This document shows, piece after piece, positions 3,923-11,296 of a stretch of 64,000 nt of DNA; within the stretch, counting starts at the first letter, position 1, and every line of letters starts with the position of its first letter. A model generated the notes under the pieces. The model saw nothing but the letters and a program-made list of their open reading frames with translations. It was not told where the DNA came from and made no database searches. Source of the DNA: Granulosicoccus sp. (lineage in GTDB: Bacteria > Pseudomonadota > Gammaproteobacteria > Granulosicoccales > Granulosicoccaceae); NCBI GenBank assembly GCA_023301725.1, contig JALZUD010000076.1:1-64000 (forward strand). Direction: 5' to 3'. The translations under genes were made by a program, and so were the position numbers.

Positions 3923-4510
3923 TTACTTCAGACCGTCTTTGCCTTCAGCATCGCTTGCCTCAAGCCCACCCACGCGCGGCAAGGGCCGGCCACTGTCAGT
4001 GACGGCTACAGCCACCATGATCTCATTGGCACGAGGTGCATCGTTAATACGCACTTCCATACCATCAAAGTGTGAACGAACATACGCGGCATCCTTATGG
4101 CCTAAGGGCACATCAAGCGCTTGCCCCATTGAGCCCATTTTTTTACTTGATGCCACCAACGCAGCACCTTTCTCAACAGCTACACGTAAGGGCTTACCTA
4201 AACGCGGGTGCAAGATAGCTGCAGCATGCTCCAGCTCCCCGTTCTCACCCACCATGGCAGATTTTCCATAGCTCTGTGCTTGGGCAGGCTCTATGCCCAA
4301 TGCTTCAACACACTTGGTACCTAACAAACCACCCAGCTCTTCGCCAATCACCATCAGCGCTTCAAGATCCTCGTGATACTCGCCTGCAAACGGGTTTTCA
4401 ATGACGGCAACACTTACCGCACGACGCGTAGGCGGATTAATTGCCTGCCCCATTTCCAGATATGTGCAGTCAACACTGGTTACAATTTTTCTGATTTTTG
4501 CAGTATTCAT
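3923..4510 (-). CDS. PF06684/DUF1185 'amino acid synthesis' family protein, copy 2
   Basis: This 195-residue protein is a clear paralogue of the gene just upstream. Both share an N-terminal strand with a conserved Y/FxE or FxEGG segment, NPFAGEY or NPYAGRY, SYGKSAMVGENGELEHAA or GYGKGSIVGEAGELEHGA, KKMGSMGQALDVPLGHKDA or KKVGGPGTLLDVPVTHSNA, and NDAPRANEM/I. Members of PF06684 adopt a variant of the Bacillus chorismate mutase fold, and their reaction is unknown. The start codon overlaps the stop of copy 1 (ATGA), so the two are translationally coupled and may form a hetero-oligomer. It is the last gene of the minus-strand heterocycle operon and converges with hgd. Confidence 0.88.
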   Translation of the reverse strand: MNTAKIRKIVTSVDCTYLEMGQAINPPTRRAVSVAVIENPFAGEYHEDLEALMVIGEELGGLLGTKCVEALGIEPAQAQSYGKSAMVGENGELEHAAAILHPRLGKPLRVAVEKGAALVASSKKMGSMGQALDVPLGHKDAAYVRSHFDGMEVRINDAPRANEIMVAVAVTDSGRPLPRVGGLEASDAEGKDGLK

Positions 4511-5091
4511 TTTAATCCATCCTCACCTTTAATATCAGCAGCGGCAAGCCCACCCGCTCGATTATGAATGCGTGCACCCGTTGTCATAACCAGTATCACC
4601 ACCATCTCGTTAGCTCGTGGCGCATCATTCAATCCTACCTCTATCGCATCAAAATGCGAACGCACATAAGAGGCGTTTGAATGTGTTACCGGGACATCAA
4701 GCAAGGTACCCGGCCCACCCACTTTCTTGGTTGAAGGCACGATTGCTTTTGATGCGGGCAATTGATCACGCATGGAGTATCCACCGGGGGCATGCCACAA
4801 AGCACCATGCTCAAGCTCACCAGCCTCACCCACTATTGACCCTTTACCGTAGCCTTCCACCACGGAAGGATCACCACCCAATGCTTGCAATAGGTCTTTA
4901 GCCATTTGCAAACCTAACGGTCGCAAATCATCAATAAATTCCATAATATTTTCCACATAGCGACCAGCGTACGGGTTAACGATAACCGACGATATCGCCC
5001 CGCGTCTTAATGGCACTTTGCCGGGTGGGCCACCCTCATGGAAAATTTCGTCGATAGTCACGACAGACTTGCGGACAATCACTTCAGACAT
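4507..5091 (-). CDS. PF06684/DUF1185 'amino acid synthesis' family protein, copy 1
   Basis: This is the paralogue of the downstream gene, sharing the motif series NPYAGRY, GYGKGSIVGEAGELEHGA, DVPVTHSNASYVRSHFD and NDAPRANEM. I place the start at the ATG at 5091 because AGGAG lies six bases upstream; an in-frame GTG at 5106 is less likely. That gives 194 residues. The start overlaps the end of the UPF0280 gene by a few bases, so it sits in the tightly packed operon with hydroxylase and 6-hydroxynicotinate reductase genes. The function is unknown. The conserved GKxxxVGExGELEHxA segment, with its Lys, Glu and His residues, is the obvious candidate active site. Confidence 0.88.
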   Translation of the reverse strand: MSEVIVRKSVVTIDEIFHEGGPPGKVPLRRGAISSVIVNPYAGRYVENIMEFIDDLRPLGLQMAKDLLQALGGDPSVVEGYGKGSIVGEAGELEHGALWHAPGGYSMRDQLPASKAIVPSTKKVGGPGTLLDVPVTHSNASYVRSHFDAIEVGLNDAPRANEMVVILVMTTGARIHNRAGGLAAADIKGEDGLK

Positions 5092-5992
5092 GCATTGCTC
5101 CTGCACATAGTTTGTTGGTTTTTTGATCGCATACGATGTTGGTGCCAGCTAGAGAAATATAAGCGGCTGATATCGCCTGCCTTGACAGCAACTCGTAAGC
5201 TTTACTGCGACCACGTTGCAATGCTAACTCAATCTCAGCCGTGGTTAGCGCATCCACAGCTACCGTCACCAGGCGTGAACCCAGATCGGAGTCAGGTGAA
5301 AGCTCTACGGCGGGCACTCGATGTACCCCACGAGAACCTGGGACATCCACTGCATTAGCAATGACTGTGGCCGCAGCATCAGCATCAGCCGCACAACTGG
5401 CAAGCACCGTCACTGCATCAGCAATGCCCAATGAGTGACTCCTGCCACGCCACCCACTCGTGGCAATGCCACGAACCAAGTGTTTAGCTTCCAGAGTCAG
5501 GTTGGCGGCAATGGTCCCTGTTTCAACGTTGTCGCAAATACCTACCGTAAAGGTTTGGTCGGCAGCTATCCATAGGGCTATATCACCTCCGTTATTCACG
5601 TATACCCGATCTAGAGCGGGTGCTTTTAGCATAGCGTCAAGGATATGATCTGCTACCGAGCCTGCAACCGCAATCATGGGAGTGACTGTATCCAGATCCG
5701 TACATTGGCTGGCCGCACAAACCATACGCTTGGCAACCGAGCACAAAGGCTCTGTTGATGCCGAAGGCAGAACTTGTTTAAGAGACACCAACTCGGCAAC
5801 CAGGTCATCAAGCACGGTTTTAAACGCTCCATGCGCATACTGATAGGCGCGGGCAACTGATCGCCGCTCACCTTCCGCGCTAATGATGAGATCGATGGGG
5901 CCATGCTGAAGATGCAATCGCTGACCACCTTCCAGCCATCGATACTGTGCGCCGCTATTGATGAGAAGTATCCGGCATCGGCCAGTCAACAT
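5084..5992 (-). CDS. UPF0280 family protein, ApbE-related (candidate FMN transferase)
   Basis: About 302 residues. It has typical UPF0280 segments: LHLQHGPIDLIISAEGE near the N-terminus, MIAVAGSVADHILDAM, VYVNNGGDIALWIA, TSGWRGRSHSLGIADAVTVLA and DADAAATVIANAVD. The family is structurally related to ApbE, the FAD:protein FMN transferase, and the NNGGD and DAVTVLA-DADAAAT blocks correspond to ApbE nucleotide and metal-binding segments. I use the ATG at 5992; an in-frame TTG at 6007 also exists, and neither has a good ribosome-binding site. The start lies inside the end of hnr, so translation is probably coupled. Since Hnr of E. barkeri carries covalent flavin, this protein may attach it; that role is inferred. 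Confidence 0.82.
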   Translation of the reverse strand: MLTGRCRILLINSGAQYRWLEGGQRLHLQHGPIDLIISAEGERRSVARAYQYAHGAFKTVLDDLVAELVSLKQVLPSASTEPLCSVAKRMVCAASQCTDLDTVTPMIAVAGSVADHILDAMLKAPALDRVYVNNGGDIALWIAADQTFTVGICDNVETGTIAANLTLEAKHLVRGIATSGWRGRSHSLGIADAVTVLASCAADADAAATVIANAVDVPGSRGVHRVPAVELSPDSDLGSRLVTVAVDALTTAEIELALQRGRSKAYELLSRQAISAAYISLAGTNIVCDQKTNKLCAGAMHV

Positions 5993-7469
5993 CGGGATGC
6001 GCAACAACCGAGCGTTGTCCAGTCAATATATGATCGTTCTGCTTACCAGTGGCACCAGCCAATGCATCGCTTAGCGGCATGATATGCCCCATGTGACCAC
6101 CCATTGCTTCATAGTCTTTTTCACGCATTGTGAATTCGATAGGTGCAACCAGTGCCGGGGTGGGCACATAGCCAAATGCATTACTGGGCATAAGCGTCAC
6201 ATCGCTCATCACTGTGATGCCCCCTCCAGGCCACGTATAAGTGGGTGCGCCACCGCAGGTCACCTGCGTCAGCGATTGTTTTACTGAGCGAGTCAACTGC
6301 ACAGGGTTAGTGGTTACACCTGCACGCAGGGAACCACCAGCACCCCCCATAAAGACGACACTGCACAATGCAGGCTCACAATTCTCTTCAATTAACTCGA
6401 TGCTGGGTTGAAGTCGTTCTGGCATAGGTAACTTCATTGGCACAAGCTCATCATTGAGTTCGTAGTACGCGAATTGTTCACCCGTTGTTGACACCATGAG
6501 CACTGATAGCCCTGGCTTGGCAATGTCAGATTTAAATTCACCCACGATACTCAAGGGGTCTGTCAGGTCAGTGCCACCCCAGCCAGTACCAGGATCGGCT
6601 ACTTGAAAGTACCGGCCAGGCGTGGATTTACGACCGTTAATGCGAATACCCGATTCGGGCCAACCGAGCACCTTGCCCGCTTGATGCTCTGACACGACGC
6701 CCGTGATGTGATCATCAACTACCACGACCTCATCCACAAGGCCTTGCCACTGCGATGCAAACATGCCCACCGTGGCCGAACCACAACCCACACGCATACG
6801 CTCCTCTTTCACGCCATCAATGACAGGCGCAGCTCCCGCTTGAACGATAACCGTAGAGCCCTCATCAATGCATAGCTCAACCGCTTCACCATTGCATAGC
6901 GACAACAAGGTTGCGCAGGTGATACGCCCTTCTTTTTTACTACCGCCCGTTAAGTGGTGCACCCCACCCAACGACAACATTTGCGAACCATACTCGCCCG
7001 TGGTCACATGACCTACCGCCTCGCCTGCTGCGCGCACTGTGCTGCATTCTGCGCCCAAATGCCTGTCAGTATCAATTTTCAACTTGGCGCCACAATAGCT
7101 GAAGATGCCTTCGGTAACCACTGTCACCATATCCACACCGTCAACAACACTGCCCACAATAAAGGGGGCAGGCTTGTAGTCTGGATAGGTGGTACCCGCA
7201 CCAATAGCGGTAACAAATGCGTCTTCAGCTTGCACGATCGTGCCATCCCAATCGCCACCTTTACTGTCGATAAAAGGTACAAGCTCCCCACCTTCCTCAA
7301 CTCGGCGCTGCAAAATGGTTAACGGGTCAAGGCGCACCAGCTGTCCCGCTTTGTTTGCATATCGATCGCAGGCGCCAGAGCGCCCATCGGCGATGTAACA
7401 CATCACTGGGCACGCATCACAACGAATTTTTACACGTTGTTCGCGTCGTGGTTTAACGGCATCGCTCAT
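5955..7469 (-). CDS. hnr: 6-hydroxynicotinate reductase (iron-sulfur flavoprotein)
   Basis: This 504-residue protein matches the 6-hydroxynicotinate reductase family. The N-terminal cysteine cluster is C17-x2-C20-x3-C24-x9-C34, followed by many further Cys residues (TCATLLSLC, VGCGSA, NCEPALC, TCGGAP). In E. barkeri this enzyme reduces 6-hydroxynicotinate to 1,4,5,6-tetrahydro-6-oxonicotinate and contains covalent flavin plus [2Fe-2S] and [4Fe-4S] clusters. Near the C-terminus DALAGAT (468-474) closely resembles the Dxx(S/T)GA(S/T) sites where ApbE attaches FMN to threonine, here T474. The ATG overlaps the stop of the hydroxylase gene (ATGA) and the 3' end overlaps UPF0280. It is cytoplasmic, with no signal peptide. 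The electron donor is unknown; no ferredoxin gene is adjacent. Confidence 0.85.
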   Translation of the reverse strand: MSDAVKPRREQRVKIRCDACPVMCYIADGRSGACDRYANKAGQLVRLDPLTILQRRVEEGGELVPFIDSKGGDWDGTIVQAEDAFVTAIGAGTTYPDYKPAPFIVGSVVDGVDMVTVVTEGIFSYCGAKLKIDTDRHLGAECSTVRAAGEAVGHVTTGEYGSQMLSLGGVHHLTGGSKKEGRITCATLLSLCNGEAVELCIDEGSTVIVQAGAAPVIDGVKEERMRVGCGSATVGMFASQWQGLVDEVVVVDDHITGVVSEHQAGKVLGWPESGIRINGRKSTPGRYFQVADPGTGWGGTDLTDPLSIVGEFKSDIAKPGLSVLMVSTTGEQFAYYELNDELVPMKLPMPERLQPSIELIEENCEPALCSVVFMGGAGGSLRAGVTTNPVQLTRSVKQSLTQVTCGGAPTYTWPGGGITVMSDVTLMPSNAFGYVPTPALVAPIEFTMREKDYEAMGGHMGHIMPLSDALAGATGKQNDHILTGQRSVVAHPDVDWPMPDTSHQ

Positions 7470-10204
7470 ACGTTCTCCTGCATACTATTGATGGCAGCTA
7501 GCACTTTGTCGGGAGTACAAGGTAGATCCCGAACCACAGCACCCGTAGCATGACGAATAGCGTTAATAATGGCTGGCGCTGTAGGAATCAGCACGTGTTC
7601 ACCCAAGCCTTTCGCACCATAGGGTCCAACCGGATCTTCCACTTCTATAATAATATGCGTGAAATCTGGCATGTCACCGATGGTTGGCATCAGATAGTCG
7701 TGTAAGTTTTCTGTGCGTCCAGGTTGGTAGTCTTCCATTAGCGTCATACCAATACCTTGCGCCACTCCACCCTCAATCTGGCCTTCTACCAACATGGGAT
7801 TGATCGCTTTGCCAACGTCATGTGCTGTAGTGATGTGATCAAGCTTAATCAATCCTAAGCGAATATCAACACTGAGCTCAATCAACTGCGCACCATAGCC
7901 ATACAACGCATAGGGTTTGCCCTGACCTTTTTCGTCAAGTGCTTCGGTAACCGGATCATAGGTTTCCTCAGCCATAAATACATAACCGAGTATGTTTACT
8001 GGCATGGCGCTTAAATCTAACGATACTGTTGACCCATCACCTGTCACAGTGATAGCACTGTTGCCCGATTCTATCTGCGCATCCGGGCCCACATTGGCGT
8101 GACGCAAAATTTGCGTGCGCAACACCTCGCCTGCCTGTTTGGCTGCAGCGCCTGTAATAAAGGTCTGGCGAGATGCAGACGTTTTTCCGCAATCTGGAGT
8201 CAGATCGGTATCGCCATCGACCAGCGATAAATCATGCGCTGACACACCCAGCGCATCGGCGGCTATCTGTGCAATCACTGTGTTTGAGCCTTGGCCGATA
8301 TCCATAGCACCTTGGTGCAACACAATTTGACCACTGGGCTTTACACCGAATCTGATAGTTGATGGATTTGGCAGGGATGTATTACCGCAACCGTACCAAC
8401 AGGCCGCAAGCCCAACACCTTTTCTTATAGCTGAATCGTTTGCTTGCTCGTTGTGATCATTAACTTTACGCAATGCAGCTTGCCAGACAGGCTTTAAGGC
8501 TTGCAAGCACTCAACGATGCCAACACCTGAGTCAAACACCTGCCCGGTAACGGTGGGCGCTCCATTGACCAGCGCATTACGCAAGCGAAATTCGAGCTTA
8601 TCCATGCCTAGTTGATCCGCCAACTCATCGAATGCGCACTCTTGCGCGATAGCTGATTGCGGAACACCAAAGCCGCGAAATGCACCGGCTGAAGGCGCAT
8701 TGGTGTGTACCGCTAAGCTAGCTGCTTTGTAATTGGGAATGAAGTATGGGCCAGAGGCATGCACCGGCACTCTGTTGGCAACCGTTGGCCCCCAGCTAGC
8801 ATAGGCCCCAGTGTTAAAGGTACCTTCAAAGTCAAAGGACTGAACCAGCCCGTGCTCATCACAGCCCACCTGCAAAGTAATGGACGACGGATGACGCTTG
8901 GTGGTCGATCGCATCGACTCCGGGCGCATGTAGCAGACGAAAACAGGCTTGCTGGTGCGCCATGCCGCGAGCGCAATGTAAGGCTGAAAAGAGATATCGA
9001 GCTTGGAACCAAAACCTCCACCACACGCAGAAGGCACAACACGTACATCATCCTCGCCGAGTCCCATGATATCAGCAAGCGATTGCCGATCCATTTGCGT
9101 GGCTTGCGTACAGCCGAATATTTCGATTCGGTTACCCACGCGTTGCGCGTAGCCCGCTTCCGGCTCAATGTATCCGTGTTCGATAAACGGCGTAGACGAC
9201 CTCACCTTTGTTGTATGCGCACACTGAGCCATGCTTTGCGACACATTCCCTCGCTCAACCAGCCCTCTTATGAGAATGTTGTTTTCCCGAGATTCGTGCA
9301 GAACTGGAGCATCAGCATGCAGCGCCGTTTGTGGGTCAAGCACAACATCAAGCTCCTCCCAAACAACAGGAAAATTAGCTAAATCAAGCGTGGCAACAAC
9401 ACGCGGATCACCGACAACAGCGGCAATTGCCTCGCCTCTAAAGCGCACCTGCTGATCGGCAAATACAGGTTGATCGGCAAAGGGTTCAATAACCCCGAAG
9501 CAGTTGCGACCACTAATATCGCGTACCGTCAATACGCATTCCACACCTGGCAAAGCACTGACATAAGCGTCTATATCACCGATAGTAAAACGAGCGCTGT
9601 GATGTTCACTACGCACAACCCTGAGTGCCAGCGCATTGTCCGGAACCGTGTCGGCACCAAAACGCAGCGCACCTGTAACTTTTGGCATCCCATCAAGATG
9701 CTTTATGGACGCACCTACGTTTTTACCATCCACCAAGTCCACCAACTGTGCATCAAGATCGGTCGCTTGCATCACCGCCTGAATAATTTTGCGATATCCA
9801 GTACACCGGCACAGCACACCACCTAAGGCGTCTTCAACTTCAACCTGAGAGGGTCGAGGTATTTCCAACAGCAAGGCTTGTGCACTAATGAGCATGCCGG
9901 GCGTGCAAACACCACACTGCGCAGCCCCAAAGTTGAGAAAGCTTTTTTGCAATTTGCTGAGTATGCCAAGTTCTGACAAGCCTTCTACCGTCTGCACGTT
10001 ACGACCCTGTATTTGTGCAATAGCCGTTATGCAACTGCATACCGGTTTACCGTCAAGCAGCACGGTACAGGCGCCACAATCTCCCGTGCCGCATCCCACT
10101 TTGGTGCCTGTTAAACCCAATGGACCGCGCAGCACCTCAGACAAGCATTCTGTTGGGTCTACATCAACACTGACATTAACGCCATTCGCCGTGAAATCTA
10201 TCAA
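7466..10204 (-). CDS. XDH-family hydroxylase: fused [2Fe-2S] and molybdopterin subunit
   Basis: This 912-residue protein fuses two subunits that are often separate. Residues 1 to about 155 are the two [2Fe-2S] domains: a plant-ferredoxin cluster (C38-x4-C43-x2-C46 and a later Cys) and an all-helical domain with QCGVCTPGM and LCRCTGY. The rest is the molybdopterin-binding subunit, with GGGFGSK, AFRGFGVPQS, GQGSNTV and the C-terminal GAKGLGE holding the catalytic Glu. Such enzymes hydroxylate N-heterocycles next to the ring nitrogen with water as oxygen source. Next to 6-hydroxynicotinate reductase, nicotinate C6-hydroxylation is the likeliest reaction. The start is a TTG overlapping the stop of the FAD-subunit gene. 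The substrate is inferred. Confidence 0.88.
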   Translation of the reverse strand: MIDFTANGVNVSVDVDPTECLSEVLRGPLGLTGTKVGCGTGDCGACTVLLDGKPVCSCITAIAQIQGRNVQTVEGLSELGILSKLQKSFLNFGAAQCGVCTPGMLISAQALLLEIPRPSQVEVEDALGGVLCRCTGYRKIIQAVMQATDLDAQLVDLVDGKNVGASIKHLDGMPKVTGALRFGADTVPDNALALRVVRSEHHSARFTIGDIDAYVSALPGVECVLTVRDISGRNCFGVIEPFADQPVFADQQVRFRGEAIAAVVGDPRVVATLDLANFPVVWEELDVVLDPQTALHADAPVLHESRENNILIRGLVERGNVSQSMAQCAHTTKVRSSTPFIEHGYIEPEAGYAQRVGNRIEIFGCTQATQMDRQSLADIMGLGEDDVRVVPSACGGGFGSKLDISFQPYIALAAWRTSKPVFVCYMRPESMRSTTKRHPSSITLQVGCDEHGLVQSFDFEGTFNTGAYASWGPTVANRVPVHASGPYFIPNYKAASLAVHTNAPSAGAFRGFGVPQSAIAQECAFDELADQLGMDKLEFRLRNALVNGAPTVTGQVFDSGVGIVECLQALKPVWQAALRKVNDHNEQANDSAIRKGVGLAACWYGCGNTSLPNPSTIRFGVKPSGQIVLHQGAMDIGQGSNTVIAQIAADALGVSAHDLSLVDGDTDLTPDCGKTSASRQTFITGAAAKQAGEVLRTQILRHANVGPDAQIESGNSAITVTGDGSTVSLDLSAMPVNILGYVFMAEETYDPVTEALDEKGQGKPYALYGYGAQLIELSVDIRLGLIKLDHITTAHDVGKAINPMLVEGQIEGGVAQGIGMTLMEDYQPGRTENLHDYLMPTIGDMPDFTHIIIEVEDPVGPYGAKGLGEHVLIPTAPAIINAIRHATGAVVRDLPCTPDKVLAAINSMQENV

Positions 10205-11076
10205 GAGAGTGATTTCCCAAGGCTTGTCAATGTGCGTTGTATTAATTCTATTGAAGCTTGTTTACGGTAGTGAGCTGTACTCCTGACATCATCAATAGGT
10301 GCTAGTGAATCGATGTGGGCAACCGATACAAGGGCGGCCAAGTTATCGTCAACGCGCTGCGAAATCAGCTGCCTCTCAAGCGCTGTCAATCGCTGCGCCA
10401 CCAGAGAACACGACCCGACACTCACTGCCGCATCGGTAATCAGCCCTTCCTCATCACAAGCTAGGCGGGCAGCGACCATGGATATCGAAATGATGAGATA
10501 TTTTCGAGCACCCAGTTTTACAAACGAGGAATGACCTGATGCAAACTCCTTTGGTATCACAATTGCCGTGACCAATTCATCCTGCTGACGAGCAGTTAGG
10601 CGATTGCCGAGGATAAATTCTGTCAATGGCAGTGTCCGAATACCCCTGATTGAGGTGAGCTCCACCATTGCGTTCAGAACAAGTAGTGGCGGCACGCCAT
10701 CAGCCGCTGGCGATGCATTGCATAGATTGCCAACAAGCGTGCCCTGATTTTGAATTTGTACAGACCCAACCTCACGCGCTGCAAGCTTCAGCGCATCGAA
10801 TGCGGGCGGCAATTCAGCCTGAATCAGATCACTCCAGGTGACTCCAGCACCGATACGGATACGTGAGGCATTTTGGCCTATATGTTTAAGTTCATGAAGA
10901 AGGTGAAGATCAAGAATGCGGCGCGGCATCGATTTTTCGTACGAGGAGGGGTAAACATCAGTGCCGCCGGCAAGAATAGTCCATGGAACCGCCATCTCTG
11001 CAGTTTTCGGCTGAATCGAATTGCTGTCTTGAAGCAATCGCAACGCATCATCAAGATCATCAGGCTGGGCGTACAC
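10201..11076 (-). CDS. XDH-family FAD-binding subunit
   Basis: This is the medium FAD subunit that passes electrons from the iron-sulfur clusters to NAD or another acceptor. The FAD-binding signatures are TILAGGTDVYPS near the N-terminus and QIQNQGTLVGNLCNASPAADGVPPLL, followed by the CO-dehydrogenase flavoprotein C-terminal domain (KLGARKYLIISISMVAARL). I choose the GTG at 11076 because GAGGT lies eight bases upstream and the family begins at about this point. A longer reading from an ATG at 11160 would add 28 residues with four cysteines that look non-homologous. It is the first gene of the six-gene minus-strand operon, and its 3' end overlaps the start of the molybdopterin subunit. Confidence 0.88.
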   Translation of the reverse strand: MYAQPDDLDDALRLLQDSNSIQPKTAEMAVPWTILAGGTDVYPSSYEKSMPRRILDLHLLHELKHIGQNASRIRIGAGVTWSDLIQAELPPAFDALKLAAREVGSVQIQNQGTLVGNLCNASPAADGVPPLLVLNAMVELTSIRGIRTLPLTEFILGNRLTARQQDELVTAIVIPKEFASGHSSFVKLGARKYLIISISMVAARLACDEEGLITDAAVSVGSCSLVAQRLTALERQLISQRVDDNLAALVSVAHIDSLAPIDDVRSTAHYRKQASIELIQRTLTSLGKSLS

Positions 11077-11296
11077 CGCGGCACCTCGTTGAATTCGGTG
11101 CTGTTGGCATGCGCCACACCAAAAATGTTGTTTGCACACAAACAATACTACGCATCGCAAGTCTGTTAGGTCAATGTCTTTTTGTCATATCGGTGATCTT
11201 TAAAAATAATGCCGAGCCTGACAACACGCGAGTACAATCAAAGCTCGCAAGCAAAATCAGTTTTGTGCCCTGCCCGTCACACCTCAGCCCTTACTA

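Follow-up and report, generated by a model that had tools for sequence, protein, structure and literature searches.

Which protein would attach the flavin of 6-hydroxynicotinate reductase (Hnr), if that flavin is covalently bound? The question is raised by a 64,000-nucleotide (nt) stretch of Granulosicoccus sp. (contig JALZUD010000076.1 of GCA_023301725.1, positions 1 to 64,000; hereafter the window), in which hnr is followed by a gene of the UPF0280 family.

5955-7469, minus strand: Hnr, 6-hydroxynicotinate reductase, 504 amino acids (aa), named from many annotated relatives
5084-6007, minus strand: UPF0280 (COG2122) protein with an ApbE fold; true start TTG at 6007 or ATG at 5992

The UPF0280 gene shares the strand of hnr, lies downstream of it and overlaps the end of hnr from either start. 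Hnr was identified through 26 plasmid relatives at 60-80% identity, many annotated as 6-hydroxynicotinate reductase; comparison with Pfam and NCBIfam gave no family match at E ≤ 0.01. The first-pass annotation had placed the overlapping gene in UPF0280, related to ApbE, and this held, with 337 bits against NCBIfam NF003322 (COG2122; cut-off 290). It had also described the family as one with no assigned reaction, to which the genetic role of COG2122 in homocysteine synthesis (Desulfovibrio) and sulfide use (Methanosarcina) should be added, according to passages of PMC5764234 and PMC12068725. Its central prediction was a dedicated flavin transferase for Hnr acting at T474; adjacency, co-occurrence and fold favor the dedicated maturase, whereas the residue did not stand.

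Hnr and UPF0280 across genomes

A genome scan for Hnr, in which 593 of 595 stretches among the matches listed encoded relatives, left 80 loci. Adding two loci of a class sample, as well as the window's own copy (L002), gave an alignment of 83 Hnr sequences. Close relatives are overrepresented among them (alignment A1, with 55 rows, shows 65-76% identity to the window protein), and a passage of PMC3511419 puts the Hnr of E. barkeri at 42% identity with one homologue of this kind.

UPF0280 was present in 78 of the 80 loci, and in every one of these its aligned start fell between -33 and +186 nt from the hnr stop, with 77 lying within 120 nt. In L044 and L079, the open reading frame (ORF) that seemed to separate hnr from UPF0280 is a reverse-strand ORF starting upstream of or over hnr, an artefact of sorting by open frames. 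As for the two exceptions, the contig of L017 stops shortly past hnr, with a UPF0280 piece at the edge of another contig, and in L038 UPF0280 is on a separate contig with one internal TAG. L004, from a sample with short flanks, had no UPF0280 nearby, and its genome, G190, carries it elsewhere. At the genome level, among 299 genomes from Pseudomonadota, the phylum of the window, the same 21 held both Hnr and UPF0280; a 22nd, weak UPF0280 match (G552) reached 22 bits, far below the cut-off. All 26 plasmids with Hnr also carried UPF0280, and on a 27th UPF0280 plasmid, pBPS33-1, an hnr remnant stands ahead of it. Of 22 Hnr genomes, 9 yielded no canonical ApbE, and the ApbE of the window's genome looks exported.

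The partnership of Hnr and UPF0280 is real, and it extends beyond Hnr, to DUF39. Adjacency, co-occurrence, the plasmids, the ApbE fold and the Hnr genomes without ApbE strengthen the case for UPF0280 as a dedicated Hnr maturase. Because it has the ApbE fold and accompanies Hnr in every genome checked for both, it would be the obvious installer of the flavin of Hnr, if that flavin is covalent.

On pBPS33-1 (L106), UPF0280, the hnr remnant, a Rieske-domain protein and a PDR/VanB-type reductase recur as a unit with IS1071 copies, twice in the stretch read and at 4 places in the plasmid. In the one-contig genome G286 (L126, L127), Hnr is split into two matches in different frames, and UPF0280 is still present.

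Fold of UPF0280 and acceptor candidates in Hnr

Profile comparison and fold relate UPF0280 to ApbE, and the ApbE fold extends over almost the whole chain.

5354-5461, minus strand: UPF0280 core T183-S184...G188-R189-S190-x-S192...A209-D210...T214...N218, numbered from TTG 6007

The profile alignment placed the invariant S184 and D210 on the Ser and Asp of the ApbE catalytic triad; judged by their equal spacing to His, they probably correspond to Ser241 and Asp285 of V. cholerae ApbE. Neither residue varied among the 111 sequences of the Hnr- and DUF39-linked branches, and the AD..AT segment hardly did. UPF0280 shares this segment, the two triad residues and the whole-chain fold with the transferases ApbE, Ftp and FmnB (PF02424), which move flavin mononucleotide (FMN) from flavin adenine dinucleotide (FAD) to protein.

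The explanation we propose, with about an even chance of being right, is that UPF0280 is a cytosolic ApbE-fold maturase dedicated to Hnr, transferring FMN to a conserved residue other than T474. Its ApbE-type cavity would hold Mg2+ and a flavin nucleotide, in all likelihood FAD, and the FMN half would be passed on to a conserved residue in apo-Hnr, where the covalent flavin would hand electrons from the iron-sulfur sites to 6-hydroxynicotinate. A protein of this kind would likewise serve DUF39 (aspartate-semialdehyde sulfurtransferase). We infer the flavin cargo, the transfer reaction, the acceptor and the cytosolic place alike, and flavin transfer by UPF0280 appears likely. In a ferredoxin-linked reductase, electrons must be taken up singly and passed on in pairs, and a flavin is a carrier that does this.

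6048-6068, minus strand: DALAGAT, Hnr 468-474, proposed flavinylation site, not conserved (sequence, alignment, model)

Inspection of the 504-aa translation confirmed DALAGAT at the place where the first-pass annotation had read it, and its single occurrence near the C terminus of Hnr speaks for T474 as the acceptor. The published ApbE target motif is D-x-x-[S/T]-G-A-[S/T] (passages of PMC12052999), and DALAGAT has A at position 4, where the motif needs S/T. The strict form D..[ST]GA[ST] occurred in 0 of the 83 aligned homologues and the loose form D...GA[ST] in one, the window copy itself. Position 474 was T in 9 of 83, that is, in 8 of the 82 others, and by eye the C-terminal segment around it is shortened in many, such as the Bradyrhizobium loci. 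As a background, the loose form was found 5 times in 245,566 aa (474 long ORFs of the loci sampled), or 0.010 per 504 aa; at approximately 0.4 per 20,000 coding residues, roughly one window's worth, a single match is unremarkable. In the AlphaFold2 (AF2) model of Hnr (overall predicted local distance difference test score 79.4; mean 84 for 461-470 and 68 for 471-480), DALAGAT sits at the start of the less confident C-terminal tail. Lack of conservation of T474 among Hnr homologues was one of the results that the first-pass annotation had named as refuting its proposal; T474 was rejected as the FMN acceptor, and we give next to no credence to its flavinylation by UPF0280.

7113-7133, minus strand: D113-M-V-T116-V-V-T119, conserved D-x-x-T-x-x-[T/S], with the weak candidate acceptor T119
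6690-6716, minus strand: DDHITG-x-x-S, Hnr 252-260, invariant D-x-x-T-G, second candidate region (conservation)
7368-7421, minus strand: four-cysteine segment C17-x2-C20-x3-C24-x9-C34 at the Hnr N terminus, presumed [4Fe-4S] site (conservation)

The acceptor would rather be a conserved Thr or Ser, with T119 as the first candidate. D113 is present in 81 and T116 in all of 82 Hnr homologues, position 119 is T in 76 and S in 6, and besides D113 no D was found that has conserved S/T at both +3 and +6, as spaced in the ApbE motif. In the second region, D252-G257 and S260 do not vary across the 84 alignment rows inspected, two of which are the window protein and the window's own copy, and Ser260 lies one place past the ApbE acceptor position. 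C17, C20, C24 and C34 are all present in 82 of 82 homologues, and the cluster they presumably hold would be of the [4Fe-4S] type.

Residues 8-45 of Hnr (window 7335-7448), which include the four cysteines, also resemble part of a protein from another genome (L005; 42% over 38 aa, E 4e-4) that by eye reads like a radical-SAM protein.

DUF39 as a second partner of UPF0280

COG2122, DUF39 and a NIL/ferredoxin protein are all required for homocysteine synthesis in Desulfovibrio (passages of PMC5764234). DUF39 (PF01837) was found in 0 of the 299 genomes of the window's phylum. A second sample comprised 149 genomes of the phylum of G558 (holding the Acidobacteriaceae locus L029), and 6 had DUF39, all with UPF0280. 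Within one class of that phylum, DUF39 was found in 35 of 142 genomes and strong UPF0280 matches in 34, every one with DUF39; in G752, which lacks UPF0280, DUF39 is represented only by a 69-residue piece, and G693 has a 20.9-bit partial UPF0280 match and no DUF39. In the 32 loci fetched, UPF0280 always lay at most 1.5 kb downstream of DUF39, on the same strand in 31. Four of the six DUF39 proteins of alignment A4 end, by eye, in a ferredoxin-like segment, and the PDB matches listed for the DUF39 profile, which are ferredoxin-like proteins, fall on the C-terminal segment.

Profile comparison indicated that Hnr-linked and DUF39-linked UPF0280 (DVU1097, PDB 2O34; MA1715) are clearly one family, with P-M-x2-V-A-G, N-G-G-D, T-S, S-x-S-x-G-x-A-D and A-D-x2-A-T common to both. 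Besides the partner, three positions differ: at 189, all 79 Hnr-linked sequences have Arg and 30 of 32 DUF39-linked ones His; 182 is Ala in 79 of 79 versus Cys in 30 of 32; and 109 is Thr versus Gly in 32 of 32. By its aligned place, His189 of the DUF39 branch could act as ApbE's base.

Within DUF39, D51, T54 and T57 are each present in 32 of 32, D51 being again the sole D found with conserved S/T at +3 and +6, and both this segment and D113-T119 of Hnr read VDxVTxxT. In the DUF39 of L162, T57 stands five residues ahead of C62, which should be the essential Cys54 described in passages of PMC12068725, judging from the spacing of 77 to C139. We suggest, tentatively, that UPF0280/COG2122 proteins could be cytosolic flavin transferases for at least two kinds of ferredoxin-linked reductase, Hnr and DUF39, with the common D-x-x-T-x-x-T as acceptor (T119 in Hnr, T57 in L162 DUF39). 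With thin profiles, hhalign gave Hnr and DUF39/HcyBio (PF01837) a probability of 0.2 and E of 0.34, and a windowed comparison p of 0.07-0.20.

UPF0280 might instead traffic sulfur as a persulfide, as Rauch & Perona (2016) reportedly proposed for MA1715. Sulfur trafficking is argued for COG2122 in passages of PMC5764234 and PMC12068725; the member from Methanococcus voltae is found at higher levels on sulfide and may have a Cys metal site close to the C terminus (passages of PMC9431491), and the Cys at position 182 of the DUF39 branch fits as well. Hnr-linked UPF0280, however, has Ala there throughout and no column with at least 90% Cys. Moreover, 6-hydroxynicotinate reduction requires no sulfur transfer, and we regard this explanation as very unlikely.

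Proposed flavin transfer and its rivals

Several observations weigh against flavin transfer by UPF0280. The window protein (P0002) scored 16.4 bits against PF02424, under the Pfam gathering cut-off of 25.6; the profile matched 24 of 53 UPF0280 family members at E ≤ 0.1 (best 1.1e-6). The catalytic His of ApbE is not kept, as 22 of 80 sequences, counting the window copy, have H at the aligned position 191; R189 is invariant in Hnr-linked UPF0280 instead, and the only His conserved at 90%, H32 (72 of 80), lies outside the Ser/Asp core. The ApbE DPRTG loop has no full counterpart, and by eye the lysine of AKG is gone. On the acceptor side, no conserved canonical flavinylation motif was found among the aligned Hnr homologues, the inner GA of the ApbE motif is kept neither at D113-T119 of Hnr nor at D51-T57 of DUF39, T119 is inside a predicted strand of the AF2 model, and the general similarity of Hnr and DUF39 appears to be at chance level. 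Covalent flavin is reportedly held by the Hnr of E. barkeri (Alhapel et al. 2006), a report that concerns no proteobacterial Hnr.

The low PF02424 score, the missing His and the incomplete loop set UPF0280 apart from ApbE, Ftp and FmnB, as does the signal peptide, none being seen by eye in P0002. The cytosolic ApbE of Klebsiella, which flavinylates soluble fumarate reductase, is likewise a cytosolic maturase with a dedicated target (passages of PMC12052999), the place that UPF0280 would have. However, that system pairs a canonical ApbE with a canonical target motif, and UPF0280 and Hnr have neither.

The missing His and incomplete loop would also suit a factor that forms no bond, that is, an Hnr-specific ApbE-fold protein that loads or protects the flavin while Hnr attaches it by itself to a His or Cys; H172, H254, H262, C126, C185, C229 and C364 are each invariant in 82 of 82 homologues. 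The conservation of S184, D210 and the AD..AT segment is, in contrast, what is expected of an active site, and this alternative seems to us rather doubtful. Transfer of another nucleotide-derived or phosphate-linked group is unlikely too, given that Hnr is said to carry covalent flavin. The residues around the ApbE FAD site do differ in UPF0280 according to the profile alignment, and the ApbE cavity also accepts adenosine mono-, di- and triphosphate (AMP, ADP, ATP; passages of PMC12052999), but FMN transfer is the reaction known for the closest structural relatives (PDB titles; passages of PMC12052999).

The remaining genes of the cluster are as follows.

10201-11160, minus strand: FAD subunit of a nicotinate-dehydrogenase-type hydroxylase (Pfam match; probable role)
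7466-10204, minus strand: fused [2Fe-2S]/molybdopterin subunit of the hydroxylase (Pfam matches; probable role from the cluster)
4507-5106, minus strand: AA_synth (PF06684) protein, first copy (Pfam match)
3923-4510, minus strand: AA_synth (PF06684) protein, second copy (Pfam match)

The hydroxylase genes lie upstream of the hnr-UPF0280 pair, the [2Fe-2S] and molybdopterin parts forming a single fused 912-aa protein, and the two AA_synth genes lie downstream. The AA_synth pair (3923-5106) had matches in 66 and 46 of the 80 Hnr loci, and an enamidase-like gene was found within the same flanks in 16 of 80. The AA_synth genes may be part of the steps after Hnr.

The pairing with Hnr gives COG2122 a partner without sulfur chemistry, in easily grown aerobes, and UPF0280 matches flavin transferases in fold over its whole length. 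If it does attach flavin, a conserved family would gain a function and an enzyme of methanogens and sulfate reducers a cofactor. Should this hold for the DUF39 branch, the homocysteine enzyme would be an unrecognised covalent flavoprotein, and the flavin would give DUF39 a one-/two-electron carrier, explaining the need for COG2122 in homocysteine synthesis.
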